From Psychrobacter sp. AH5 (GTDB taxonomy: Bacteria; Pseudomonadota; Gammaproteobacteria; Pseudomonadales; Moraxellaceae): a stretch of 64,000 nt of DNA. A program made the translations under genes and the position numbers. Positions 25,333 to 42,639 of this stretch are shown here, in pieces; the stretch's first letter is position 1; every line of letters starts with the position of its first letter. The DNA is taken from assembly GCF_040371085.1 (NCBI RefSeq), contig NZ_JAMBMT010000001.1, positions 1,488,001 through 1,552,000 of the forward strand, read 5' to 3'. A model generated the notes under the pieces. The model did not search any database. It worked only from the letters and a program-made list of their open reading frames with translations, and had not been told where the DNA came from.

Positions 25333-26389
25333 CTTAGATTAACACACCAAGTGCAACGCTAATTAATATTACAGAACGCCTGCATAGGCGTCTTAAACCC
25401 TAATCGTTTTCTTGGTCTGTTGTTTAGTTTGTTCTCAATGTCCTGTATTTCATTATCAGAGACTTGTCTAAAGTCACAACCCTTAGGCAAGTACTCTCTG
25501 ATAAGGCCATTGGTATTCTCGTTGGTTCCTCGCTGCCATGACGCATAAGCATCGGCAAAGAAGAAAGGGCTAAAGAGCTTTTGTTTCACCTTCTTATGCT
25601 GAGCAAACTCTTTACCATTGTCAGAGGTAATGGTCTTAACCTGCAAACTCACTGGCGCTAAGAGTTCTATCATTGCCTCTGATACTTGCTGTGCTGTTTT
25701 ATGACCCACACGCTTCATCTTCAGCAGCCCCGTTTTACGTTCAACGAGCGTGACAATCGCTTGCTTGTGATGCTGACCGATAACGGTATCCGCTTCCCAG
25801 TCACCAATACGTGAGCGTTCTTCAACAATACAAGGGCGCTCATGAATCGAGACTCTGTCATTGATACGGCCTCGAGTCTCAGCGGTTAGACGCTGCCGGT
25901 ATGGTTTGGCTTTACGTCTGAGACACTGCCACAATGTGCCACCCTGCCTCTTATCACGCCAAATATAGCGATAAATGCTCATATGACTGATACCAGCATG
26001 AACGCCAGATATTTGCTCAGGACTCCAGTTCTCTTTAAGCTTGTCTGTCACCCATGCCCAGATGTCAGCCACAATAGTTGTGGCGTTGTTAGCCCGTCTG
26101 TCACAAGCCTTGTTATTAGCATGCTTTGCTCGGTAACCTCGTAGGCTTTTATTGCGTCTAAGCTCTCTTGATATGGTACTGGGACTTCTGTTTAACTCTC
26201 GAGCTATGAAATTAATACTATGTTTTGCCCCTATTAGGGCATAAATCTGGTATCGTTCCCCTAGGCTTAGATGCGTATAGCTCATGGTTGCAATCTCACT
26301 TTGGTCGGTGGATAAAAACTTTGATGCTAGCGCATCTAGGTCTTTTTTTCACCTGCTCTTTGAAATTGCACTTCATGTGTTAATCTAAG
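25333..26389 (-). mobile_element. IS30-family insertion sequence, complete
   Basis: Terminal inverted repeats of 24 bp (25333-25356 and 26366-26389, 21 of 24 positions matching) start CTTAGATTAACACA. They enclose one transposase gene. AAA stands immediately outside both ends (25330-25332 and 26390-26392), consistent with a 3-bp target duplication, but this is low-complexity sequence. The element is 1057 bp, normal for the family. Confidence 0.88.
25359..26285 (-). CDS. IS30-family transposase
   Basis: The 308-residue protein begins MSYTHLSLGERYQIYALI and has an N-terminal helix-turn-helix (SINFIARELNRSPSTISRELRRN) and the DDE core: GDWEADTVIG (first Asp), TITSDNGKEFAQH (second Asp) and ENTNGLIREYLPKG (Glu), then RPRKRLGFKTPMQAF. 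All three catalytic residues are present and the frame is uninterrupted, so the element may be active. Confidence 0.96.
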   Translation of the reverse strand: MSYTHLSLGERYQIYALIGAKHSINFIARELNRSPSTISRELRRNKSLRGYRAKHANNKACDRRANNATTIVADIWAWVTDKLKENWSPEQISGVHAGISHMSIYRYIWRDKRQGGTLWQCLRRKAKPYRQRLTAETRGRINDRVSIHERPCIVEERSRIGDWEADTVIGQHHKQAIVTLVERKTGLLKMKRVGHKTAQQVSEAMIELLAPVSLQVKTITSDNGKEFAQHKKVKQKLFSPFFFADAYASWQRGTNENTNGLIREYLPKGCDFRQVSDNEIQDIENKLNNRPRKRLGFKTPMQAFCNIN

Positions 26390-27004: not shown

Positions 27005-27021
27005 TTTGGTGGAGATGGCGG
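27005..27021. repeat. Attachment site, distal copy (ssrA 3' end)
   Basis: TTTGGTGGAGATGGCGG is identical to 42279-42295, where it forms the 3' end (CCA included) of tmRNA. Same orientation, so it is the direct repeat made by site-specific integration. Confidence 0.88.
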
Positions 27022-27687: not shown

Positions 27688-30600
27688 TTAACCCACTACG
27701 TTGATATTATCAATCTGTTGCATCAGCTCATTTGTTAAGCTAAGTGACGCGATGATATTCAGGTAATGCTTAATATCATGATGGTCTAGCATGCGATCAC
27801 GGCGGTCTTTTAGCCACTTTTGCGCGGGCTGATAGCCACCGATATAGAACTCCCATGCCACTAAAGGCACATTGGTAAAATACTGAGTATCGTTAAGCCA
27901 AACTTTGCCAATGCTGCTATCTGCTTCGTCAGGCTCAAAGCCAACGCTGGTTTTGGTCATCTTGCGAGTAACCGAATTATCACCGCCTATTGGATAGCCA
28001 AGGCTGAGCGCCTTAATCTGTGCGGCAAGCTTCGGGGATTCTAACAAATGAATTTGGCGTAGCTCGCCACCGAGCGCCACCAACTGCCAAAACGTATCGG
28101 CATCGCTAGGATAAGGCACGCGAGGGAAGTCAATTTTTAGGAATTCTTTATAAGTCTCACGATATGTTGGGCTGTGTAATACTGCATAGATATAATCGAG
28201 AGTATCTATCGGGGCAAACGTGCCAGCCTCATCAGATTTTTCATTAGTAAAGGTTAAGCCAATGGCTTTGGCAATGGCTGCCACGATTTCAGGATCAAAG
28301 TTTGGGGTTCGGGTTGGGGTTTCTTGTGCACCTAATAACTCGGTTTGGTTGTCTTCTTCATGATATAGGTAAAGTGGAAATAGAGCTGATTGAGTGGTTC
28401 TCTCGCCACACTTCGTTTCTATAGGTTTATCAGTAATAAAAAAATGATCGCATGATTCAGACTTATTACTTCGCGCAGTTATAAAACCTGTATTGGATTG
28501 ATGCAACATATGCTTCATTACTTCATTTCTAGGATAACAATGAAAACCCTTTGATTTTCCAGTGTAAAAAGTCCATTTATCTTCAAATGGTCTATAAGAT
28601 ATTTTTATTATCTTACCTTTTCCATTCTTATAGTTATTTTCGATATCTTTCCTAGCATAGCTGACCTTCCAGTCTCTTACATCTTTTCCTAGATGAAATT
28701 TCTTTCTAGCCTCTTCATCTTCGAGATTTATGAAACTTTCTATGGTCTCAATAACTTCATTTTCAGTTTCATGAAGGGTGAAGCTATCTCTAGCTGTCAC
28801 TATTCCCACACTGTTTACAACAAATAATTTTTCTACATTAAAACCATTCAAATATATATTCTCAACTTTAGAATCTCTTTTTACCATAAAGTAGTTTGGG
28901 GCATGATTTGGTATTTCTGAGAAATCGATATCTTCTAAGCTAGTTTCTGTTAAGAAATCATATTTATCCTCTCTGATTCCATACAAGTCAAAATGATAAA
29001 CCTTACCAAGCTCACCAGATTTTTTCTTGCCAGTTTTAACCAATATATTTATAGAAACGCCTTGCTGTATATCAAAAACGTTTTCATCTTTACTGCCATC
29101 AGGAGAAGTTTCTTGTTTATTGGAATTGCCATGCAAGTCAATAGTAAAAATTTTATCGTAAGTATTTAACAGTTGCCAGCGCATACCGCGAAAGGTTGGG
29201 TTGTCCAAAAAGCCATGCGGATTGATAAAGGCTAAGACACCCTCGCCATTCTTTTCTATAAAATGTTGCCCATAACGCATGAACTTCACATAATCATCAT
29301 TTATCCATTTTGAATTGCGCTCATTTAATTTTTCAATACCACCTGGCTCTTTTTTATAATCTTTCATAAGGGACATGATCCAGTCACCCTTATTAGTACT
29401 CTCTCCGCTATACGGTGGATTGCCCATGACAACCATCACTGGCGCATCACGTTTGACCGCATTAGCTTCGTTCGCCTCAGCAGACAGCCAGCCAGCAAAT
29501 AGCGTCCCTGTATCGGGATTATGTTCTTCTAGTGAGTTGGTGAGATAGACTTGCATACGCTTAGGTTTAATCGGCTGATAGCCTGTATCGGTCAATAGCA
29601 TATCGAGCTTGAGGTGTGCCATTGCATAGCTTGCCATCAGTAGTTCAAAGCCGTGTAAGCGCGGTAATAGATCTTGCTCGACATAACTGCTCCACATGCC
29701 GCCCATATTCTCAAACTGATCATGAAAAATATGCTGAATAATGGCGGCAAGGAATGTACCCGTGCCAGTTGCAGGATCAAGGATTTGTACCTTATGCACC
29801 AACTCTTTAACCATCTTATAGCCTGTTTTAGTACGACTATCAGGGGTTTGTGTCTGTTTTTCTATCTCAATCTTACTGGTATCAGCGATACCCTCGGGTA
29901 AATCAAATTCAGACTTCAATATATCGTCCACAGCACGCACGATAAACTTTACCACTGGCTCAGGCGTGTACCAAACACCGCGCTGCTTACGAAGCTTGGG
30001 ATTGTATTCCGCCAAAAATGTTTCGTAAAAGTGAATAATCGGGTCTTGGGTTTGGGTAGTTTTACCGAAGTTTTTTAGGATAGCTGCGACATCAGTGGCG
30101 CGGAATACATCCGCTAAGTTATCGACAGTGGTTTTGATACGGTCATCAATATCGACACCAGCAACATGAGAGAATAGTTTTCGTAAAAATGGATTGGTTT
30201 TGGGAATGCGTTCCGCCGCTTCTTGACGGCTAAAAGTATCTAAGGTGTCATCATGCAGACGGGCGGCAAACATGCCATAAGCTAGCGTTTGCGCATAAAT
30301 ATCGGCAAAGTCACTAGGGGTTAAGTCATGGATAAGCACAGACTTAAAGGTATTGAACTGATCACGTAAGTCAGTATTGGCATTATTATCTTCATCACTG
30401 GTCAGTGCTTGATATAGAATATTCTCTAACAGCCTTGCCTTGCCAGCCATTAAGATAGCCAAACGCTGGGCTGACCTGATGGTCTGTCCAACATAGACAC
30501 AGAAGTCACGCAGTAGCTCAGCCAAGCGCTCAAACTCACTGTCATGCGACTGCACTACGCCTGCGACTAACTCACCGACACAGACTTCATGAATGCGCTC

Positions 30601-30948
30601 GCTATTGACATAAAACTGAAAGCGTAGATAGTCCGTGATGACGAGGTTATCAAGTGCGGCCTTATAGCGATCAAACTGCTCTTTGTACTGTTTAGAGTTT
30701 AAGTCTTTGCCAACGTCTTTGGCTTCGATAAAACCAATAGGAATCTCTTTTTTACTAATCAAAAAGTCAGGGTTACCGCAGTCCGTTACTTGGCTTGGCT
30801 CATTGGTTACCATCACATCAGGCGCTAAATGATTTATCAAATCCTCTAAATCTTTACGGAAAGTATGTTCTGAGCTATGACCTAATTTAACCCTTGATGC
30901 TACTTTATTGACGTAATCGCTAACGTGTTGGTGATTGCTATCTGACAT
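27688..30948 (-). CDS. Single-chain restriction-modification enzyme (type IIG / type ISP-like)
   Basis: The 1086-residue protein joins three activities. The N-terminus holds a PD-(D/E)xK nuclease (PDFLI near residue 60, FIEAK at about 73-77). A helical region follows, then a gamma-class N6-adenine methyltransferase with motif I ILDPATGTGTFLAAI (near 391) and motif IV VVMGNPPYSGES (near 510). The C-terminal part is the ISP-type specificity region. The superfamily-2 helicase that separates nuclease and methylase in LlaGI/LlaBIII (about 1500-1600 residues) is absent, so a type IIG mode is more likely. The upstream XRE gene is 76 bases away on the same strand and may be its controller. Confidence 0.9.
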   Translation of the reverse strand: MSDSNHQHVSDYVNKVASRVKLGHSSEHTFRKDLEDLINHLAPDVMVTNEPSQVTDCGNPDFLISKKEIPIGFIEAKDVGKDLNSKQYKEQFDRYKAALDNLVITDYLRFQFYVNSERIHEVCVGELVAGVVQSHDSEFERLAELLRDFCVYVGQTIRSAQRLAILMAGKARLLENILYQALTSDEDNNANTDLRDQFNTFKSVLIHDLTPSDFADIYAQTLAYGMFAARLHDDTLDTFSRQEAAERIPKTNPFLRKLFSHVAGVDIDDRIKTTVDNLADVFRATDVAAILKNFGKTTQTQDPIIHFYETFLAEYNPKLRKQRGVWYTPEPVVKFIVRAVDDILKSEFDLPEGIADTSKIEIEKQTQTPDSRTKTGYKMVKELVHKVQILDPATGTGTFLAAIIQHIFHDQFENMGGMWSSYVEQDLLPRLHGFELLMASYAMAHLKLDMLLTDTGYQPIKPKRMQVYLTNSLEEHNPDTGTLFAGWLSAEANEANAVKRDAPVMVVMGNPPYSGESTNKGDWIMSLMKDYKKEPGGIEKLNERNSKWINDDYVKFMRYGQHFIEKNGEGVLAFINPHGFLDNPTFRGMRWQLLNTYDKIFTIDLHGNSNKQETSPDGSKDENVFDIQQGVSINILVKTGKKKSGELGKVYHFDLYGIREDKYDFLTETSLEDIDFSEIPNHAPNYFMVKRDSKVENIYLNGFNVEKLFVVNSVGIVTARDSFTLHETENEVIETIESFINLEDEEARKKFHLGKDVRDWKVSYARKDIENNYKNGKGKIIKISYRPFEDKWTFYTGKSKGFHCYPRNEVMKHMLHQSNTGFITARSNKSESCDHFFITDKPIETKCGERTTQSALFPLYLYHEEDNQTELLGAQETPTRTPNFDPEIVAAIAKAIGLTFTNEKSDEAGTFAPIDTLDYIYAVLHSPTYRETYKEFLKIDFPRVPYPSDADTFWQLVALGGELRQIHLLESPKLAAQIKALSLGYPIGGDNSVTRKMTKTSVGFEPDEADSSIGKVWLNDTQYFTNVPLVAWEFYIGGYQPAQKWLKDRRDRMLDHHDIKHYLNIIASLSLTNELMQQIDNINVVG

Positions 30949-31024: not shown

Positions 31025-31324
31025 CTATATCAATATCACGTCACTGTTTGGCATCTTAGCGATGATACTCACCTCACCACCCAACGCTCTAACATAGTTT
31101 TGCAAGGTCGATAGCTGAATATCCTTACCACTTTCTACCTTTGATATGCTGGCTTGTGACACACCCATTATGGCGGCAAGTTCGGTCTGTTTTAACTGTT
31201 TAATTTTGCGCAATTTGGCAAGCTCAATAGACTGGCTTAATATCTTGGATTTATTATTGATCGCTTGTTGTCTATCGGCTGGCAAGTCTGCTACATAATC
31301 ATTTAGTGCGCTAAAATGCGTCAT
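31025..31324 (-). CDS. XRE-family helix-turn-helix regulator
   Basis: The 99-residue protein has a Cro/CI-type HTH at about residues 42-75 (LKQTELAAIMGVSQASISKVESG) and a short C-terminal beta tail (GGEVSIIAKMP), the shape of HigA/RelB-associated XRE antitoxins and of restriction controller proteins. No toxin ORF lies upstream (375 gene-free bases). As the first gene before the RM gene, it is best read as a controller that delays or limits restriction expression; an orphan antitoxin is the alternative. Confidence 0.88.
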   Translation of the reverse strand: MTHFSALNDYVADLPADRQQAINNKSKILSQSIELAKLRKIKQLKQTELAAIMGVSQASISKVESGKDIQLSTLQNYVRALGGEVSIIAKMPNSDVILI

Positions 31325-31699: not shown

Positions 31700-32098
31700 T
31701 TAACTAATCTCTGATCTAAATTCATCTAATTGCTGTTGTACCTGTTTACACCTATCTAACCCCATTCTAATAGCTTCGGACAAATCAGCATTAGGCTTGA
31801 TAGCATTCTCCACGTTTGGCTTCATACCACTAGATTTTAGACTATCTTGAGCTACTTTGTTTAGTGGCCAACCTATGCTTGACTCATCATTAGCCGTATC
31901 ATCGGGGTAAAAATCTACTTCGTTGAAACTGCAAGCAATATGTCCAGATTTAATAGTAAATGGGTATTGCTTAACATTGCCATAAGATGACCAAAAAATA
32001 TCAACGACTGCTATATCATCATCAGTATCAGTGTCGTAATCCGCAATAGGTTGGCAAGCTGTCAATGATAGTAAGATCATGAAGATTAACTTATTCAT
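31700..32098 (-). CDS. Small lipoprotein, DUF2511 (YebY)-like
   Basis: The 132-residue protein starts with a lipoprotein signal (MNKLIFMILLSLTACQP; lipobox LTAC, Cys15). The mature part has an acidic stretch, then YGNVKQYPFTIKSGHIACSF and IGWPLNKVAQDSL, which resemble the YebY/DUF2511 pattern of a short beta domain that ends in a secreted WPLN segment. The tail is helical. Its role as island cargo is unknown. Confidence 0.65.
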   Translation of the reverse strand: MNKLIFMILLSLTACQPIADYDTDTDDDIAVVDIFWSSYGNVKQYPFTIKSGHIACSFNEVDFYPDDTANDESSIGWPLNKVAQDSLKSSGMKPNVENAIKPNADLSEAIRMGLDRCKQVQQQLDEFRSEIS

Positions 32099-32713
32099 CT
32101 ATCCACCTATATTTATCCATTCTATGAACCATACCTTAGTATGATTAATAAAAGTCACGCTTTAACTTTTTAACATGGCATTAACCTACTCATAGTGGCT
32201 GTAAGTCACGCGCCTACGTTACTTGTCGCGAAAGTTTTTTAACTTCTGTTTGAAACGGTTTTTTTCTTGTGCGTGTGAATGGTGGCGGTGTTCATTGGTT
32301 TGCCTGTTCAATCTCGATTTATAGCTCCCCCTCTAACGTGTCCGAAAACTAGCACCCTCTGTCAGGAGTGCGAGCATCAACCATATTTATTATGGTCAAA
32401 TTCCAATGATAGTTCTTTGACTAGATCTGAAATTAGAACAAAATCTAAAGCTTATTATTATTTGTTGTGCATATAATGCTGCAATCTACAGTGTGTCGTA
32501 GCTTATAGTTGCTTGCCGATATTGCTCAAAGCTTACTAATCGGTTAAAGTCGATTAATATTTAGCTGTTTGCTAACAACGATTAGCATGTGGTTTATCAA
32601 ACTATGAGTAATACAAGTAAGAAAGGTGCTGACTCGGATGATGCTAGAGAGATAGGGCTGAAGGTATGTGTAACCTGAGGCCTTTGGATTGAGACTAATA
32701 TAAGGACGTGATT
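32099..32713. other. Gene-free stretch upstream of the kinase cassette
   Basis: The 615 bases separate two divergent genes. A short ORF at 32279-32476 has no ribosome site or family resemblance. The stretch should contain the promoter of the wHTH-kinase-DUF3037 cassette. I see no tRNA-like or CRISPR-like structure; a structured RNA cannot be ruled out by eye. Confidence 0.45.
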
Positions 32714-33211
32714 ATGCTGTTAGATAGAGAAATGCAGTTGGCTATTTTGACTGAATTAAGTGAAACCTACCCCTCATCAGTGAACATTAGTGAAAAATAT
32801 GATTACGGAAGTGATGATTACTATAAGTTAATCGCCAACTTGGCTTACCTCAAAGATCATAAACTCATTTCTGAAAAGAGCCTGCTTGTATCGCCGTCTA
32901 TGCAAGGTGAATCTTTCCAACCTCATTTGGCTTCTATCACTCATATAGGCATGGACTTTCTTGCAGATGATGGCGGGCTATCAGCCATCTTAGGTGTAGT
33001 GACTATTAAGTTTGAAGCCGAACAGTTTAGGACAATCCTAGAGTCTATGATTCTGTCCTCTAATCTACCAACTGAACGTAAACAGACAATGATTGACGCG
33101 CTTCGAGAGCTGCCCGCTGAGAGTATAAAACACCTGACAACAAGAATTGTGGATGCGGGCTGGGATAATCTAGACTCTCTAATGACAATAATTCAAAACA
33201 GTCTTCTTTAA
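32714..33211 (+). CDS. Winged-helix-like protein, first gene of the kinase cassette
   Basis: The 165-residue product begins MLLDREMQLAILTELSETYP. Its N-terminal half (about residues 1-80) has the spacing of a winged helix (YYKLIANLAYLKDHKLI as recognition region, ITHIGMDFLADDGG ending the wing). The C-terminal half is helical (ERKQTMIDALRELPAESIKHLTTRI). Similar proteins occur in proteobacterial accessory regions without known function. ATG 32714 is preferred over GTG 32708 because AAGGA lies 7 bases before it. The kinase gene follows after 47 bases; this protein may be the regulator or antitoxin-like partner. Confidence 0.7.
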   Translation: MLLDREMQLAILTELSETYPSSVNISEKYDYGSDDYYKLIANLAYLKDHKLISEKSLLVSPSMQGESFQPHLASITHIGMDFLADDGGLSAILGVVTIKFEAEQFRTILESMILSSNLPTERKQTMIDALRELPAESIKHLTTRIVDAGWDNLDSLMTIIQNSLL

Positions 33212-33258
33212 GAGCATAAGAAAAAGTTGAGATGATCAACTAATCATAGGATGTTGTT

Positions 33259-34095
33259 ATGAAAAAAATACTAAATCTTGTTATGCCATTTGATATAGAG
33301 CGCATTATTCAAGCTAAAAAAAATGACCCTATTAGCAACGTATTAATGGGTAGCTTGCTTCTAAACAATCAACCTCATTCTGTATATTTTAAATTTTACT
33401 CATTACAAGAAGGCAATCGTGGTTTGCTGAATGAGATTCTTGGTTATTTATATGGCACAATTTCAAATATACCTCAGCCAGAATTTGCAGGAGTTGCCTT
33501 AGTACCAACTAAAATGCTTCGTCCTTTTTATCCGTTACTTACCAAAGAAATGCAGGGGTGTGTTGATCAGGAAGAAACATTACCTGCTTTTTTTACCACG
33601 GCAGCTACTAGCACACACTACGAGTTTCATACCTTAAATGACTGGCTGCGCAATCAGATAATTAAATGGAAAGACTTTAATAAGGCTGTTGTGTTTGATG
33701 AGGTAATAGCGAATACTGACCGTTATCCACGCAACCTTATTCATACGGGAAATAATCTTTTTTGCATGATCGACAATGGATTTCTAGCAACTGAGGATAG
33801 CAGTAATCCAAACTGGAATTACAGCTCTCTCCAGCCTCAACTCAATTACTCAAACCAACTTGCTTCAATTAATCAAAATGAGATAGAGTCTGATGTCAGG
33901 AAAGGTAATCGCTTCATCTCCGTTGCTGAAGATTATTTCTTGTCACATCAACACTTATTACCTGAGATGAAGTTCTGGATAGATAACTTTGCCACAAATA
34001 ATAAAAAAGATTGGCAATCTTTCTTGGATTTTTTACAATGGCGAACGGATAATGTGAACGAATTAATAAGCAATCGTTATGGTTTACTGGGGTAG
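33259..34095 (+). CDS. HipA-like kinase
   Basis: The 278-residue protein fits the HipA_2 family. SVYFKFY (Lys45) and LLNEILGYL (Glu59) form the likely Lys-Glu pair. VFDEVIANTDRYPRNL (145-160) is the catalytic loop with Asp154 and Asn159, and FCMIDNG (Asp172) is the metal-binding segment. The key kinase residues are therefore intact. It is much shorter than HipA (about 440 residues) and lacks its N-terminal subdomain. HipA kinases phosphorylate glutamyl-tRNA synthetase, but the target of this subfamily is not known to me. The DUF3037 gene follows after 6 bases, a pairing that recurs for this kinase family. Confidence 0.82.
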   Translation: MKKILNLVMPFDIERIIQAKKNDPISNVLMGSLLLNNQPHSVYFKFYSLQEGNRGLLNEILGYLYGTISNIPQPEFAGVALVPTKMLRPFYPLLTKEMQGCVDQEETLPAFFTTAATSTHYEFHTLNDWLRNQIIKWKDFNKAVVFDEVIANTDRYPRNLIHTGNNLFCMIDNGFLATEDSSNPNWNYSSLQPQLNYSNQLASINQNEIESDVRKGNRFISVAEDYFLSHQHLLPEMKFWIDNFATNNKKDWQSFLDFLQWRTDNVNELISNRYGLLG

Positions 34096-34101
34096 TTAGT
34101 G

Positions 34102-34992
34102 ATGAGCTGGAAGAGTTTACTAGAAAATACCGAACAGCATAGAGTATCTGGCCATTACCAAGTAATTAAATTTACTCCAAACTTAATTGCTCAGGAAACC
34201 TTTAATATTGGCATCGTATTTCATGATAATGAAGACAATCGTCATGTTCGTATGTTAAAAAATGCTAAGGCCTTTGAGTGCTTATACGGTAAAGAGGGTG
34301 CGACCCAAGTTCAAAATATGCTTAACTATGCAAAAGATATCGCTGTGAAATTGGGCGATACTGTTATTGCTTCACCTCATTTGAGTTATTCCGCACCCTT
34401 ATTTACTCAAGGCTTAACTATTGACCAAATACTATCTAGCTTGTATGGACAGTATATTAATTTGATTTGCGATCATATGGAGACTCAATCAACCCAACGT
34501 CAATCAATAAATACCGACTCTTTACGTAAAAAATTATTCAAAGATTTACGCAAAGCCAACCCAGAAGGCTTCAAGGATATCTTGCGTGAAGAGCCTTTTA
34601 TTATTGGCGGTGATAGCAAAGTTGAGATAAATATGCCTATTTGGAAACATGGGGATATTTTCAAAAACAACTTTTTTGGTACGTTGGTATCAGCAGACTT
34701 CATTCCAGAAGCTTATTTAGGATATAACCTAGATACGCTTGGCGCCATGAACCTACAAACAGCATGTGAGATATCGGGAGGAAAAAGCAGAGCCGGATTC
34801 TTTATCTATTGCCCCACACCTGATAATAGTGACATTAGCGAAGAGAATTACACAAACATAATCAAGCACATAAATAAAACATCAAATAATGTTAAATATA
34901 TGGCAGACCGTACTAACATACCTTTAAAGTTTGTTCAGTCTGATGACCTAAAGAAACTATATGAAGATATATTAAATTTTACTTACGCATAA
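34102..34992 (+). CDS. DUF3037-family protein paired with the HipA-like kinase
   Basis: The 296-residue protein begins MSWKSLLENTEQHRVSGHYQVIKFTPNLIAQETFNIGIVF; the pattern of a beta strand, then E-x-F/V-N-I-G-I/V-V-F, is typical of DUF3037. The rest is mixed alpha/beta with no catalytic motif I recognise. A GTG at 34099 directly precedes the ATG; I chose the ATG. The short gap indicates co-translation with the kinase. DUF3037 could be a substrate, modulator or antidote for the kinase; all are inference. Confidence 0.75.
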   Translation: MSWKSLLENTEQHRVSGHYQVIKFTPNLIAQETFNIGIVFHDNEDNRHVRMLKNAKAFECLYGKEGATQVQNMLNYAKDIAVKLGDTVIASPHLSYSAPLFTQGLTIDQILSSLYGQYINLICDHMETQSTQRQSINTDSLRKKLFKDLRKANPEGFKDILREEPFIIGGDSKVEINMPIWKHGDIFKNNFFGTLVSADFIPEAYLGYNLDTLGAMNLQTACEISGGKSRAGFFIYCPTPDNSDISEENYTNIIKHINKTSNNVKYMADRTNIPLKFVQSDDLKKLYEDILNFTYA

Positions 34993-35372
34993 ACAAAAAT
35001 TTGTTTCTAGTAATAAGGCTTTTAATTACTTGCGAATAACTACTCAAGCTTCTCTCTAACCGCCCTAGTGGCAATTTTTACTATTTACTCATCGCCTACC
35101 TTGCGTTAAGCGCGCTTTATTAATCAATTAAAAAGTCGCTATAGTTGCTAAAGTTGGTCATAAGCCTTTGTTGTCAAGTCTTGTAGGTTAGCTCACTACC
35201 TGCTAAGGGTCGCTAAAGTTGCTATAGTTCTGCTAAATTTCGTCTGTTTTGGCTAAGTTTAGCGATAGATTAGCAAATTTAGCTATGCTTAGCAGCGCAC
35301 TACCTAAAGTTAAGCCCTCGACTGGCAAGGGCTAGATAAAGTTTAGCAACTATAGCAGCTTTTTAAGGGTAG
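34993..35372. other. Convergent intergenic region with iteron-like repeats (candidate origin)
   Basis: The region carries repeated GCTAWAGTT nonamers: 35138-35146, 35147-35155, 35212-35220 and 35221-35229. Variants are GCTAAATTT near 35232 and GCTAAGTTT near 35252, and inverted forms lie at 35275-35290 and 35338-35356 (TTTAGCAACTATAGC). Pairs sit head to tail without spacer, as iterons do. It lies immediately downstream of the DUF3987 replication gene. Confidence 0.6.
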
Positions 35373-37490
35373 CTAATTAATCAGCTTAGGGTTGATACAT
35401 ACTAAACGCCTGCGCCCCTCACTCTCTAACCTGATATGCCCCATACTCTCTAAGTCGTCGAGCAAGCCATTAAGTTTCTTACCTCTTAGGGTATTGGGTG
35501 CGTTCTGTGACACAAACGACTTATTCAAGATAGGCGGATTTTTAGCCCTTGCTTTATCCACTAGCCAGCTGCTTAACTTCTCACTGTCGTTCTGCTCACC
35601 TGTTGGAGTTGCATCAAGGTAGCGCAAGCGTTCGGCTGTTGAGTATTCCACAAGCATAAACGCCCGTTTAATATCATCAGTAGTGATTGTATGACGTCTA
35701 TCGAAGAACGCCATCAATGACGCTATACGGCTGGCATTCTCCGCCATGCGTGAGGCATACGCTTTTAGATACTCTAAAGGCTGCCCGTGTGCCTGTCTGT
35801 CTTCTATTGCCTGTTTAAAGTCACTGAAAACTTGCCTAGTCTGTTTGTCTGCCCATTGCATTTTAATGCGCTGTGGTGCGCCTGTGCTGTCATTGGGTAG
35901 ATTGGCTGGCAATGGATCAAGTAAGCTCTGACAACGTGCCCAGTAGTTTATTAAGTAGTCATTATCATACGGGCTGTCATTATTGCGCTGCTCATCGTTC
36001 CATACTCTTTGGCCGCGCAAGTCCTCAGGGCAGGCAATCAAAGCACGGGCTAAAAACCCTTGTCCATTCATAACGGGATCGGCTAGTGCTGGCTCTAAGA
36101 TAACTCGCTGCCCTTGTAGTAATAGCGTCATACGCACGTTATAAGCGTCTGTGTGCGGTGTTGCATAGGCAGACTTTTGCGAGCGTAAACGGGACACTTC
36201 ACCATCACTGTATAGCGTTGTTAATGATGATAAGGCATTGCCTGCAGTATCGCCTTTCATGGTATGACCGTTAAAGAATTGGGCGGCTTCGTCTGTCGTC
36301 CATGACGCATTACTGATACTGCCATCAATAAACTTATCGAGTATCGGCTCAATGGTCGCTTCTTTGAACATGGTCTTAGGATTTTGGGGCTTTGGGTTGG
36401 ACTCTAAGAAGTCGGCTAGCTCTTTACCTTTAAGACTTACCCTGTCATTCTCCCATGATGACAAGGCAATAAGATAATCAGCATATAGCTGCTTCTCATA
36501 CTCACGTATTTTGAAGTGAGTTAAGCCCATAGCTTGTGACTTACCGCTACCGCTTTCGCCCTCTGTGATTAATATTAGGCTGGTTGGCATGTGTCCGTGT
36601 CCCATCGGTGCATCAATGAACCGTTGCCCCATGTGTGCCAGTGCCCCTAAAACGCATTGACCTGCAATAGCTGTAGGTGCTTGCGTGTAATGTGCTACTG
36701 CCTTAACAACGTGCTGTAGCAAGCCTGTGAACGCATCTATGGGGTATGGCGTGGGCTTGTTTGGGCTATTGGCTAATGGTTCAGGTTCGCCCCATATCTC
36801 AGCTTGTAAATCGAGTATGGCTGTATCATCAAGGGTTAATATGTCGCTATAGCTTAGATTGCCATACTCTAAATGTTCTAAGACGTTTCTATCACTGGTA
36901 ACAATGGCTTTTACGTTCTCACCTTTGAACGGCTTACAAACTTTGTCTTTCTGATCTAGGGTAGTAAAGATAGTCACGGGATAAACTTCGGCAAAATGCT
37001 TTACCATGCCATTGAATAGCAGACTATCAACGCTTGCCAGTACCGTAACATTGTCATTTATTAAGCATTGAGCAAGCATTACAGCGTCATCTAAGTTATC
37101 AACGGCTATCAGCTCACAGGTGCTATCTAACGTCCCAATGATTAAGGCAGACGGCTGCATACGGTCAATGATTAACGGCTTTTGACTGCCATTAGGTGTG
37201 ACGCTGGCAAGGGTTACGGGCTGATCTTGGTTACTGCTCAATACTAGCCCTATCGTGCCAGCTGTAGGCGATATCGTTCCTGTATCAAAGCCTGTAGTTA
37301 TGGTAATATTGTCATCAATGCTCAATAACTTATCTTGTATGCCTAACTGCTCACATAGGTTATATAAATTTAATAGTGTATTGTCATCTGCCAGACCTTG
37401 CCGTGTGGCTGCATTAAACCTACTTATCATTTCAAAGCCTGTGCTGAATGCACGGGCTTTTTCATGGGTATTTTTTGGTGTGGTGGTCAT
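35373..37490 (-). CDS. DUF3987 (YfjI-like) primase/helicase protein
   Basis: The 705-residue protein has an N-terminal part that looks like a degenerate TOPRIM fold (LIAVDNLDDAVMLAQCL, then VTVLASVDSLLF). The C-terminal DUF3987 ATPase has Walker A GESGSGKSQA (about 311-320), WTTDEAAQF as Walker B and RMTLLLQGQR. Such proteins replicate satellites and integrated elements, like P4 alpha-type primase-helicases. The start overlaps the stop of the 60-residue ORF by four bases (ATGA), so translation is coupled. The iteron cluster next to its 3' end is the likely target. Confidence 0.85.
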   Translation of the reverse strand: MTTTPKNTHEKARAFSTGFEMISRFNAATRQGLADDNTLLNLYNLCEQLGIQDKLLSIDDNITITTGFDTGTISPTAGTIGLVLSSNQDQPVTLASVTPNGSQKPLIIDRMQPSALIIGTLDSTCELIAVDNLDDAVMLAQCLINDNVTVLASVDSLLFNGMVKHFAEVYPVTIFTTLDQKDKVCKPFKGENVKAIVTSDRNVLEHLEYGNLSYSDILTLDDTAILDLQAEIWGEPEPLANSPNKPTPYPIDAFTGLLQHVVKAVAHYTQAPTAIAGQCVLGALAHMGQRFIDAPMGHGHMPTSLILITEGESGSGKSQAMGLTHFKIREYEKQLYADYLIALSSWENDRVSLKGKELADFLESNPKPQNPKTMFKEATIEPILDKFIDGSISNASWTTDEAAQFFNGHTMKGDTAGNALSSLTTLYSDGEVSRLRSQKSAYATPHTDAYNVRMTLLLQGQRVILEPALADPVMNGQGFLARALIACPEDLRGQRVWNDEQRNNDSPYDNDYLINYWARCQSLLDPLPANLPNDSTGAPQRIKMQWADKQTRQVFSDFKQAIEDRQAHGQPLEYLKAYASRMAENASRIASLMAFFDRRHTITTDDIKRAFMLVEYSTAERLRYLDATPTGEQNDSEKLSSWLVDKARAKNPPILNKSFVSQNAPNTLRGKKLNGLLDDLESMGHIRLESEGRRRLVCINPKLIN

Positions 37491-37669: not shown

Positions 37670-38192
37670 GATAGCTACCTCCTAGTGATTTATGAGTTAA
37701 TGTCACACTATACGGTAAAGATATAGGGTGACGGGTCTTACTCTCGGCATCACTAGAAGCCGCCCCGCATATTCGCCTTGCGGCTATTGTATTTTGCAGC
37801 GTCAACCCGTCATAGTCGGTTAGCAAATGATTTGCTATAGATATGGGGGAGTGCCCCCTTGTGGCGCGTAAATGCGCTTTTAGGGCGGTACTTGATGGCA
37901 CAGTAACAGCTTGAGAGGCTGCACTACTATCAGGCACAAAAAAAGCCAATAAATAACGGCTGGCTTGTCCGCTAGTGATTTTTGAGAGGTCTATATAGTA
38001 ACCGCTGCTATTATCACTTGCAATCGGTTTTGCATGGACTGGCTGGCATGTGACCAATGATAGTAGTAAGCCAATACCTACCACCCATGCTATAAAAACA
38101 GTAAGGCTAAGTAGTAAGCTGCGTTTGTAGAGCTGGCTGTCGCTGTGCTTCCCGTGGTCGGCTTTTAGATTGGTTTTTTTATCTATGCTCAT
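37662..38192 (-). CDS. Hypothetical single-pass membrane protein
   Basis: The 176-residue protein has a basic N-terminus (about 28 residues), one hydrophobic segment (LLLSLTVFIAWVVGIGLLLS) and a Ser/Ala/Thr-rich C-terminal part. A Cys (VTCQPVHA) follows the segment, so it could be a signal-anchor or an uncleaved signal. It overlaps the KilA-N gene by 14 bases. No family is recognised. Confidence 0.55.
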   Translation of the reverse strand: MSIDKKTNLKADHGKHSDSQLYKRSLLLSLTVFIAWVVGIGLLLSLVTCQPVHAKPIASDNSSGYYIDLSKITSGQASRYLLAFFVPDSSAASQAVTVPSSTALKAHLRATRGHSPISIANHLLTDYDGLTLQNTIAARRICGAASSDAESKTRHPISLPYSVTLTHKSLGGSYHG

Positions 38193-38715
38193 TTCTTACT
38201 TCCTCCACGTTAAAAAGGCTGGGATGTATCTGCTTTAGAGTGCTATTAATATCTTGCTGTATTTGTGGCTTGATCTGCTTACCACCAACGCAAAGGAAGC
38301 GACCTGCGCTAGTGAGTGCAGTATCAACCACCTGTAAATCATGGCATAAGTTATTGAGTCGCTGGCTAAGCTGGTTTTGCTGATCGGCGATTGAGTGAAA
38401 GGCACGTATAACCAGTAGGTGAAAGCGTGGGCTAACCCACATTGCGTAGCTATAAACAAGCTCATAGCATACAAATGTACCTTGTGGTGCTCCGTCTAAC
38501 TGTATGCCCTCTACAACCCTTATTGGCTCTAAGCTCCTCATTTCTGAGGATCTAAAATTTTCAGTCTTTATTTCAGTTATTAATTCTTGAGTTTGTTTTC
38601 TACGAATAAAGTTACTTGGTTGATGTCGTTTAAGTCCGCCACTGGCTCTGTGTAGGTCATTGAGTGAGTAAAGCCCGTCTTGCATATCTATGTTGCTGTT
38701 TGAGATAGTAAGCAT
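38179..38715 (-). CDS. KilA-N domain protein
   Basis: The KilA-N domain fills most of the 178-residue product: DGLYSLNDLHRASGGLKRHQ, PSNFIRRKQTQELI, then GTFVCYELVYSYAMWVSPRFHLLVIRAF. KilA-N proteins bind DNA and often act as phage anti-repressors or regulators. I took the ATG at 38715 because a GAGGGGG ribosome site precedes it; an ORF start at 38760 would overlap the upstream gene by 43 bases. Confidence 0.85.
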   Translation of the reverse strand: MLTISNSNIDMQDGLYSLNDLHRASGGLKRHQPSNFIRRKQTQELITEIKTENFRSSEMRSLEPIRVVEGIQLDGAPQGTFVCYELVYSYAMWVSPRFHLLVIRAFHSIADQQNQLSQRLNNLCHDLQVVDTALTSAGRFLCVGGKQIKPQIQQDINSTLKQIHPSLFNVEEVRNEHR

Positions 38716-38717
38716 GA

Positions 38718-38960
38718 TTACACCCCCTCTACGGTTTGCGGTGTCTGCTGATCTATCCAATACTGTTTAAACGTCTTACCGTTGCGTTTGATGGTCTTAT
38801 CTTGGATAACCACGCCTTGCGCTCTTAGCTCGCTGATCCGCTGTAAAAAGCACGTTATTTGCCATAGATCAAAGGCTTCATAAGTAGATATGCTGTGACC
38901 TGCCAGCATGTGATTATGAATAATCTGCTTATAGCTCTTTTTTGGTTGCCGTGTGCTCAT
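38718..38960 (-). CDS. Small phage-type helix-turn-helix protein
   Basis: The 80-residue protein (YKQIIHNHMLAGHSISTYEA, LWQITCFLQRISELRAQGVVI) resembles the HTH_39 wing-helix family of phage and satellite proteins. It is likely a DNA-binding regulator. The next gene starts two bases beyond its stop, so it is part of the same operon. Confidence 0.72.
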   Translation of the reverse strand: MSTRQPKKSYKQIIHNHMLAGHSISTYEAFDLWQITCFLQRISELRAQGVVIQDKTIKRNGKTFKQYWIDQQTPQTVEGV

Positions 38961-38963
38961 GAT

Positions 38964-39254
38964 CTACACCTCGCTAGTGGTTGAGGTGTGAGAGTTCAGC
39001 CATTCGTGAACGTCCGCATAGCTCCATGCGGTCATCGTTGGTGATAGCTTTTTGCCAGCTGGGAAACGTCCATCTTTCGACCATTCAAACAAGGTAGTTT
39101 TGCTAAAGGGTAGGAACGGCAAAATGTCCTTTGCTCTGCCCATGCCTGTAGTAGGCAGTTGCATAGATAGACTGTTTACAGTGGTTGATTCGGTATCGTG
39201 AGAGGTGTTATCAGTAGAGGGAATTACTGGGGTGTTTTGAGTGGGGTGTGTCAT
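38964..39254 (-). CDS. AlpA-like DNA-binding regulator / excisionase
   Basis: The C-terminal half shows the AlpA/MerR-type winged HTH pattern: GRAKDILPFLPFSKTTLFEWSKDGRFPAGKKLSPTMTAWSYADVHEWL. In P4-like elements AlpA proteins activate excision and integrase expression. I chose ATG 39254 (GGAG ten bases upstream) over 39284. The gene heads the minus-strand operon that runs to DUF3987. Confidence 0.8.
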   Translation of the reverse strand: MTHPTQNTPVIPSTDNTSHDTESTTVNSLSMQLPTTGMGRAKDILPFLPFSKTTLFEWSKDGRFPAGKKLSPTMTAWSYADVHEWLNSHTSTTSEV

Positions 39255-39351
39255 CTTAACTGCTCCATATCGTATGATTTGCACCGCTGCGATGTGCTGC
39301 GATATGGATAGAATAGAGAGTGGGTACGGCTATCAGGCAAGGACTTTTGAT

Positions 39352-40875: not shown

Positions 40876-42117
40876 TTAGCCATGCTTTTGTGTCTGTTGT
40901 TTGAAGTCTGCACGGATCACGTTGTCCAGCTTGCCAGCATAGGCATCATCAACGAAACTTGCCCATTCGTTCATCATATTAATTCTGTATTGCAAGTGCT
41001 GCGCCCCGTTATAAGCTGCGCTGATCTTATTTTCCCTATCATGAGCCAGCTGTAGCTCTATCGCTTCGTGCATGTATTCCTGCTCATGCAATGTGGTACT
41101 AGCAAGCCCTCTAAAGCCGTGCCCTGTCATCTTGCCTTTATATTGCATGTTCCATAGGGCATTAATAAATGCGCTTTGACTGTACGGCTTACGGGTTGAG
41201 GTATTAAAAAAAACGTATTTATCGGAAAAACCTAGCTCTCTTATTTGCTTTAGTATTGCTATTGCTTGCGGTGCTAGTGGCACGATATGCAAGCGCCCAG
41301 CTTTCATCTTTATAGCTGGTATAGTCCATAAGCCACGTTTAAAGTCCACATCTTGCCATTCCATGTACCTAATTTCATTGGTACGCACAAACGTATAGCA
41401 CATAAACCATAAGCCTAGCTTCACTAATAGGTCACCACCATAAGCATCAATGTCTTTTAATAGTTTAGGTAATTGTTGGCTAGTGATTCGACTATGATTG
41501 ACTGTTTTATGTGGTTTGATTGCTTCGGCTAAATCGGTGGCTGGGTTATGCGTGGCTAGTCCATTGCGTATAGCGTGCTTGAATATCTGCCCTATCTCTC
41601 TAATGGTACGCCTTGCCATTTCACTAGCGCCGCGGCTCTCTACTGCTTTACCAATAGCCAATATGTCAGGCGCGGTTATGTCGTTTATATTTTTATGACC
41701 AATGGAGGGCTTTACATCGCGCATATAGGCGGAATAGTTACGGCTAAAGGTGTTTTGTGCTAGGTAGGTTTTGCGCTCGCTATACCATGATTGAGCTATG
41801 TTATCGAAAATATTAGAACCATCTTGGCTGGCTTGCTGCTCTTTTTTATGGTCTTTAGGGTTCACACCCTCAGCTATTAAGCGTTTGATCTCAATATTGC
41901 GCTGCCTTGCGCTTTGTAGGCTCATAACTGGATAAGTACCAATAGTGAGGGTTTGTTGCTTACCTTGCCAGCGGTAGGCGCTGATCCATGACTTGACGCC
42001 CGTATATCTAACCCATAGTTGCAGCCCGTTACCGTCACTATGCTTGTCAGGTCGTTTGCTCTCGATAGCTTTATCGCTTGGCTGCAGCTTATTAATGACC
42101 GTATGAGTTAAGGGCAT
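40876..42117 (-). CDS. Tyrosine-type site-specific integrase (P4-like)
   Basis: The 413-residue protein has the DUF4102 arm-binding N-terminus (VINKLQPSDKA, GNGLQLWVRYTG), a SAM-like core-binding domain (about 100-200) and the catalytic domain. The latter has RTNEIRYMEW (first Arg), HGFRGLASTTL (His and second Arg), LAHD (His) and the nucleophile in SAAYNGAQ (about residue 369). All catalytic residues are present. The gene points away from ssrA, starting 162 bases from the tmRNA 3' end that served as the attachment site. Confidence 0.96.
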   Translation of the reverse strand: MPLTHTVINKLQPSDKAIESKRPDKHSDGNGLQLWVRYTGVKSWISAYRWQGKQQTLTIGTYPVMSLQSARQRNIEIKRLIAEGVNPKDHKKEQQASQDGSNIFDNIAQSWYSERKTYLAQNTFSRNYSAYMRDVKPSIGHKNINDITAPDILAIGKAVESRGASEMARRTIREIGQIFKHAIRNGLATHNPATDLAEAIKPHKTVNHSRITSQQLPKLLKDIDAYGGDLLVKLGLWFMCYTFVRTNEIRYMEWQDVDFKRGLWTIPAIKMKAGRLHIVPLAPQAIAILKQIRELGFSDKYVFFNTSTRKPYSQSAFINALWNMQYKGKMTGHGFRGLASTTLHEQEYMHEAIELQLAHDRENKISAAYNGAQHLQYRINMMNEWASFVDDAYAGKLDNVIRADFKQQTQKHG

Positions 42118-42278: not shown

Positions 42279-42295
42279 TTTGGTGGAGATGGCGG
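42279..42295. repeat. Attachment site, ssrA-proximal copy
   Basis: TTTGGTGGAGATGGCGG overlaps the tmRNA acceptor end and matches 27005-27021 exactly. Confidence 0.88.
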
Positions 42296-42639
42296 GAGTT
42301 GAACCCGCGTCCGCCGGCATTACGCTCATGACTCTACATGTTTAGATTCTGTCTTTGGATTTAATCCGCACCGATCCGACAGGCAGGATGGATTGGACGA
42401 TTCTCTACTTTTGAACCCAAGCGATTGAGACAATCCCTTGTGGCGAACCTATATTCGGACGCTTCAACTGGGCTGGTCAACTATAGGTAATCGGCAGCGC
42501 AGTAAGCAGGGTTTAAGCTGCTAGAGCGTAAGTTTCGTCGTTTGCGACTATAACAATATATGTTTGATTTACGAGAGGACATACACTCTCGACATGCATC
42601 ATTGAGTTTCATCACCAGCGTCGAAGCCAGAACATCCCC
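42281..42639 (-). ncRNA. ssrA: Transfer-messenger RNA
   Basis: The 359-base RNA begins GGGGATGTTCTGGCTTCGAC and ends in the tRNA-like ...CATCTCCACCA, with the T-arm GGGTTCAACTCCCGCC. The reading frame at 42513-42545 encodes ANDETYALAA followed by TAA, the classic proteolysis tag. With SmpB it frees stalled ribosomes. The 3' end is the integration site of the island, which preserves the full RNA. Confidence 0.97.

Follow-up and report, generated by a model that had tools for sequence, protein, structure and literature searches.

A HipA-like kinase and its DUF3037 partner in Psychrobacter as a probable distant branch of the HipAD-type defence family

A HipA-like kinase gene and a DUF3037-family gene of Psychrobacter sp. 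AH5 are probably a further example of the recently described HipAD-type defence system, within which they form a distant branch. They are the last two genes of a trio in the window, by which is meant the whole 64,000-nucleotide stretch analysed here, and the genome around it measures 3.24 Mb.

32714 to 33211, plus strand: winged-helix protein (phrog_3983), 165 aa from its ATG; probable operon regulator
33259 to 34095, plus strand: compact kinase of HipA/CtkA fold, 278 aa; probable toxin
34102 to 34992, plus strand: DUF3037-family protein, 296 aa from its ATG; probable antitoxin

The working unit is the pair of kinase and DUF3037 genes. It probably encodes a HipAD-type kinase toxin that is held by its DUF3037 antitoxin and released on infection, arresting the cell, with the winged-helix protein dispensable. 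In an uninfected cell, the DUF3037 protein would bind the kinase and keep it inactive. This hold would be lost on phage infection, and the freed kinase would phosphorylate an essential component of the host, most likely one involved in translation; the infected cell would then stop before phage release. The winged-helix gene would be a promoter-proximal regulator that came, together with the pair, out of the immunity operon of a prophage. Its product would not be needed for the core reaction, and the upstream regulator slot would be interchangeable. For the window pair, it is the direct inhibition by DUF3037, the trigger, the target and the winged-helix role that we infer. Behind this reading stand the genes, their pairing and co-divergence, the predicted fold, the residues, the selection and the mobile contexts observed for the pair or its relatives.

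A sequence-only reading of this DNA had described a tightly packed trio that runs against its island and sits near a restriction system, and all of this is borne out. The three genes exist as open reading frames on the plus strand, separated by 47 and 6 bases if the ATG starts are used. The other assigned genes of the element, together with a lipoprotein-like ORF, lie on the minus strand, and a type IIG restriction enzyme is found about 1.8 kb from the trio with two ORFs between. The DUF3037-family gene has an alternative GTG start at 34099; the start methionines of the window proteins are matched by most relatives. A promoter scan of 32100-35380 found 4 promoter-like sites, against 11.0 in shuffled sequences. 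When the window was compared with another genome of the genus, G043, dN/dS was 0.14 for the kinase and 0.09 for the DUF3037 gene, a signature of purifying selection from which it follows that both genes are used. The corresponding value for the winged-helix gene, 0.28, rests on 6 changes only.

The structure model of the kinase predicts a HipA/CtkA-like fold. CtkA of Helicobacter pylori (3akk) shares 10% identity with it, and a common fold proves no common function. The catalytic residues that had been picked out by sequence alone (Lys45, Glu59, Asp154, Asn159 and Asp172) are indeed kept, being invariant in 18 aligned kinases and in 42 of 42 clusters of relatives. The Pfam HipA_2 model (PF20613) does not recognise the window kinase, which places it below the curated cut-off. 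That model matches one of 18 relatives (E 0.0069), and PDC-M66A has no match to the window kinase. Pfam and NCBIfam profile searches, which a very distant relative could escape, found no HipB-type HTH or HipS-like partner in the first and third proteins. The earlier remark that a HipB-like HTH partner is missing is true of the window; in many relatives, however, the gene just before the kinase encodes an HTH protein.

Relatives of the kinase were collected from several sources. A homologue search returned only 7 proteins, without genomic context, and a single-protein scan of viral contigs gave none that was confirmed. In the set that was analysed, the genus was joined by 73 viral-contig loci, by Moraxella phage Mcat22 and by five out of nine additional genomes of the family. 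The family search matched 19 genomes, of which four (G108, G113, G196 and G215) had their contexts left out. At 80% identity, 86 kinases of at least 200 aa fell into 44 clusters, mostly from viral contigs. Left out of these clusters were L149 (on the same contig as L085), L033 (from G076, where the kinase is in pieces), a fragment of 47 residues in L089, and L111, which has 183 residues. As L090 stops at a contig end, 43 of the 44 clusters could be assessed downstream.

The partner is close to constant. In 42 of the 43 assessable clusters the kinase is followed immediately, on the same strand, by a gene of 271-360 aa, the exception being L100. An iterated profile, started from 13 partners, found all 42 partners (21 after the first round) and gave no match away from a kinase among 3812 ORFs, in loci picked for their kinase or winged-helix genes rather than genome-wide. 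Kinase and partner distances also correlate (Mantel r 0.917, against a maximum of 0.144 in 2000 permutations). The recurrent kinase/DUF3037 pairing, which the sequence-only reading had recognised, is upheld. Profile matches to the window's partner are faint: the DUF3037 model PF11236 gives E 0.0011 (19.6 bits, cut-off 22.6) and PDC-M66B a weak E 5.7e-4. PDC-M66B matches 9 of 14 relatives, at best with 2.8e-7, and no Pfam match to DUF1829 was found at E <= 0.01 in 42 scanned partners.

Experiments on relatives have been published by others. In Retron-Sda1, deletion of the HipA-like kinase abolishes defence against Bas51 and deletion of DUF3037 is toxic, while defence survives inactivation of the RT or deletion of the ncRNA or HTH gene (PMC12548924). 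DS-6, renamed HipAD, consists of a kinase and a DUF3037/DUF1829 protein and loses defence when the kinase is mutated (PMC13092281, which cites Brenes and Laub 2025 on HipAD). Kinase-dependent defence and toxicity on DUF3037 removal are thus known from relatives and would extend to the window pair by analogy. The toxin-antidote or abortive-infection role proposed earlier fits these reports, while the statement that the function is not known is outdated, as relatives make up a tested defence system, HipAD/DS-6 (PDC-M66).

The kinase occurs in 10 of 105 genus genomes, including the window's own, and a DUF3037-family gene adjoins it in all 10, although one copy (G076) is broken. In a sample of the class it was found in 5 of 369 genomes; the four besides the window's own all have the partner, and two of them have an HTH gene directly upstream. 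Among 50,697 phage records, two carry the kinase, Moraxella phages Mcat22 and Mcat18, both with the partner. Small plasmids are a further setting. The three annotated genes of Salmonella plasmid pYC33-1 (L196, 3462 bp) are the kinase, the DUF3037-family partner and a VbhA-family antitoxin, and the pair has no upstream regulator there. Near-identical pairs occur on plasmids of 3.5-6.4 kb from Salmonella, Klebsiella, E. coli and Raoultella; of 5426 E. coli genomes, two carry the pair at high DNA identity, in each case on a plasmid. That relatives lie mostly in phage, restriction or plasmid contexts supports the sequence-only reading, with the reservation that a collection of viral contigs is by its nature biased towards phage contexts.

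What precedes the pair varies. In relatives the place is taken by a short HTH protein, by a CI-type repressor with an S24 domain, by CI together with a small ORF of lipoprotein-like type, or by type I restriction genes in an operon; restriction systems lie beside the pair in the window and in L029-L032. The closest viral-contig relative found (L043, 63% identical) has the order HTH+S24 repressor, 75-aa ORF, kinase, DUF3037. A repressor-like gene stands in the upstream same-strand run in 32 of 44 clusters (31 by the first profile round); among 597 other genes from these loci, taken as control, the number is 16. The control genes are not independent, and genes of the loci examined also went into the repressor profile. 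In 26 of 44 clusters, a repressor-like HTH gene directly adjoins the kinase upstream. The 12 clusters without a repressor by profile are L028, L031, L040, L050, L069, L075, L076, L087, L088, L089, L090 and L110; L087 has an upstream HTH_3 gene by Pfam, and L089 has no upstream sequence. A Pfam tally of 50 of the 67 upstream proteins, leaving out those below 90 aa, fourth upstream genes and clusters L001, L028 and L031, gave HTH_3 in 28 and Peptidase_S24 in 12. In the window and G043, no phage repressor was found upstream in the same operon. The parts of the HipAD/DS-6 literature drawn on here (PMC12548924, PMC13092281) do not describe the pair behind phage repressors, and the link is not claimed as unpublished. 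In L034, L044, L071, L072, L087, L091 and L094, the short HTH proteins directly before the kinase have, as judged by eye, similar C-terminal tails (G-LT--D--LLE-IA-R), and their genes often run into the start of the kinase gene; these proteins are possible dedicated partners of HipB type.

The product of the trio's first gene matches the phage protein family phrog_3983 over its full length (E 2.3e-50; residues 1-164, profile positions 2-163 of 165), and 772 relatives were found at E <= 0.001. The structure model (pLDDT 77.9, pTM 0.50) agrees with the winged helix suggested earlier, predicting it at residues 3-93 followed by a helical tail, with fold matches that are individually weak. Phage AbIPP1 encodes an 80.6% identical protein behind a CI-like repressor, with one small ORF between. 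Across clusters of this gene, 18 of 34 have a same-strand repressor within 2.5 kb upstream (control, 32 of 266) and 16 have none within that distance. Kinase genes are present at 3 of 85 winged-helix loci, two of these three on one contig; the viral part of this survey, made with a winged-helix alignment, covers the best 80 of 313 loci. Viral contig L149 (the L085 contig) carries a 231-aa S24-type repressor, the kinase, a 277-aa partner, three small ORFs and then the winged helix. Given the phrog_3983 assignment, the repressor linkage and the gene order in L149, the winged-helix gene is part of the immunity operon of such phages and merely precedes the pair in the window. Within the genus it was found in 3 of 105 genomes, twice with the pair and once (G047) without. 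Of the 10 genus genomes with the kinase, two have it next to the pair, the window's own and G043, and it is for this reason no constant third part; a fixed three-gene cassette, as in the sequence-only reading, is not supported on the same count. It may nevertheless matter more than the main reading allows, because G043 keeps it beside the pair at 98% identity, with the order and spacing of the trio preserved.

The trio is cargo of an integrative, phage-satellite-like element in ssrA. The element spans about 15.3 kb between two 17-bp repeats:

27005 to 27021, plus strand: left attachment repeat, 17 bp, exact copy of 42279-42295
27688 to 30948, minus strand: type IIG/ISP restriction enzyme-methyltransferase (PF18135, E 3.3e-86; PADLOC REase_MTase_IIG, 1204.8 bits)
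31025 to 31324, minus strand: Xre-type HTH protein (PF01381, E 2.2e-10)
31700 to 32098, minus strand: lipoprotein-like ORF that separates the trio from the restriction genes (by eye, signal-like N-terminus)
35373 to 37490, minus strand: DUF3987 protein (PF13148, E 1.5e-45)
38179 to 38760, minus strand: KilA-N protein (PF04383, E 1.3e-19)
38964 to 39284, minus strand: AlpA-type regulator (PF05930, 29.3 bits, cut-off 21)
40876 to 42117, minus strand: tyrosine integrase adjoining ssrA (Pfam PF13356, PF22022, PF00589)
42279 to 42295, plus strand: right attachment repeat, 17 bp, exact, at the ssrA 3' end
42281 to 42639, minus strand: tmRNA gene (ssrA), the insertion site (ARAGORN)

It also holds an HTH_39 protein, a 445-aa ORF and two small ORFs. 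Its attachment repeats and its integrase, AlpA, KilA-N and DUF3987 genes suggest that it may be a phage satellite of P4/PICI type. We take the DUF3987 protein to be primase/helicase-like, with a role in replication. A DUF3987 match of some kind is present in 59 of 105 genus genomes, and thirteen related elements of the genus (L028, L221-L232), chosen among the best of these matches, were examined. The 17-bp repeat occurs twice, one copy at ssrA, in six of them: L028, L222, L224, L227, L228 and L229. The siblings are alike in their core and vary from the DUF3987 gene to the far repeat, the smallest measuring 7.8 kb (L227), and only L028 (from G043) matches the trio with the restriction enzyme. 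As the core is constant and this stretch is not, the trio is cargo in a variable slot.

Several further observations concern this element family. L221-L232 share an AlpA/DUF3987 core and a variable cargo slot, and their sites are ssrA or, in L221 and L223, have the integrase by tRNA-Pro. Between the window and G043, the Xre protein is 95% identical and the restriction enzyme only 70%, which indicates that this cargo diverges faster than its neighbours. Relatives of the lipoprotein-like ORF lie directly upstream of the kinase in L035 (10358-10756) and L036 (10850-11272) and beside the DUF3987 gene in sibling elements that have no pair (L221, 8767; L222, 8534). The L036 copy had no Pfam match, and no match to the ORF was found in the phage records. 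Just outside the left attachment repeat lies a transposase-like gene (HTH_38, rve; 25359-26285, minus strand), presumably of IS30 type.

Other readings of the pair have to be weighed against defence by kinase release, against which itself it counts that the window proteins match HipA_2, DUF3037 and PDC-M66B weakly or below cut-off. The pair could be an addiction module, in which a cell that loses the element or plasmid is punished by a kinase that outlasts DUF3037, with defence secondary or absent. Its place at the end of an integrative element, and the 3462-bp plasmid that has little other annotated cargo, would suit such a role, but relatives defend against phage in published tests (PMC12548924, PMC13092281) and restriction systems are neighbours of the pair in the window and L029-L032, and we regard addiction as unlikely. 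Less likely again is a true three-part system with the winged helix as essential repressor, antitoxin or infection sensor, like HipB in HipBST. The intact arrangement in G043 and the HTH proteins immediately upstream in 26 of 44 clusters speak for it. Against it, the winged helix is found next to the pair in only two of ten genus genomes, most of its relatives have no kinase nearby (three of 85 loci, two being one contig), and the HTH gene of Retron-Sda1 is dispensable (PMC12548924).

The strong repressor linkage (32 of 44 against 16 of 597) invites two further explanations. The kinase of a phage might act on the repressor or another phage regulator, as a lysogeny-control module with defence as a by-product. 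This is very improbable, as the pair is also found behind type I restriction genes and on tiny plasmids free of phage genes, and no CI-type repressor was found among the assigned genes of the window element. Alternatively, and still rather unlikely, the pair of temperate phages is wired to the lysogeny circuit as a guard, with the upstream DNA-binding proteins (CI, short HTH proteins and the window's winged-helix protein) as interchangeable inputs to one output. Co-transcription behind the repressor would tie DUF3037 supply to an active repressor operon, so that the kinase would be freed once a superinfecting phage shuts off this transcript or the repressor is lost. The satellite-like element would have swapped the prophage repressor for a winged-helix one.

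A defence family whose tests cited here date from 2025-2026 acquires a distant branch on satellite-like elements, in Moraxella phages and on tiny plasmids, and its two constant parts are set apart from a variable upstream slot. The most interesting part of the finding is the repressor-linked placement: in many temperate phages the pair lies within the repressor operon, the position of lambda rexAB, which makes it possible to test whether lysogeny control and a kinase toxin are connected. Should the kinase act on an aminoacyl-tRNA synthetase, as HipA and HipT do, a prophage-borne defence would be tied to translation arrest.

Known systems resemble the window pair to different degrees. HipA and HipT both act on translation (PMC13092281, PMC10627512), and HipA families are treated in PMC8262856, whose main text contains neither 'DUF' nor 'prophage'. 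HipBA differs in having HipB, of which the window shows none, and its HipA is far longer than the window kinase. Like the window trio, HipBST, with HipS as its antitoxin (PMC10627512), combines a compact kinase, a separate neutralising protein and a DNA-binding gene; however, the window partner is DUF3037 and not HipS, the gene order differs and the winged helix is not a HipB-type HTH. RexAB-type prophage defence consists of unrelated proteins, and its position behind a phage repressor, also described for RexABpp (PMC12894663), is common to most relatives of the pair, whereas the window copy has lost its repressor neighbour. HipAD/DS-6/PDC-M66 is distant in sequence (PDC-M66B at E 5.7e-4; the window kinase gives no M66A match), DS-6B has the DUF1829 that none of the 42 partners showed, and the window pair is led by a winged-helix gene. 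Both keep the catalytic residues of the kinase and a HipA-type fold (predicted for the window), and here, as in the Retron-Sda1 pair, a HipA-like kinase is followed by an adjacent DUF3037 protein in a mobile context.
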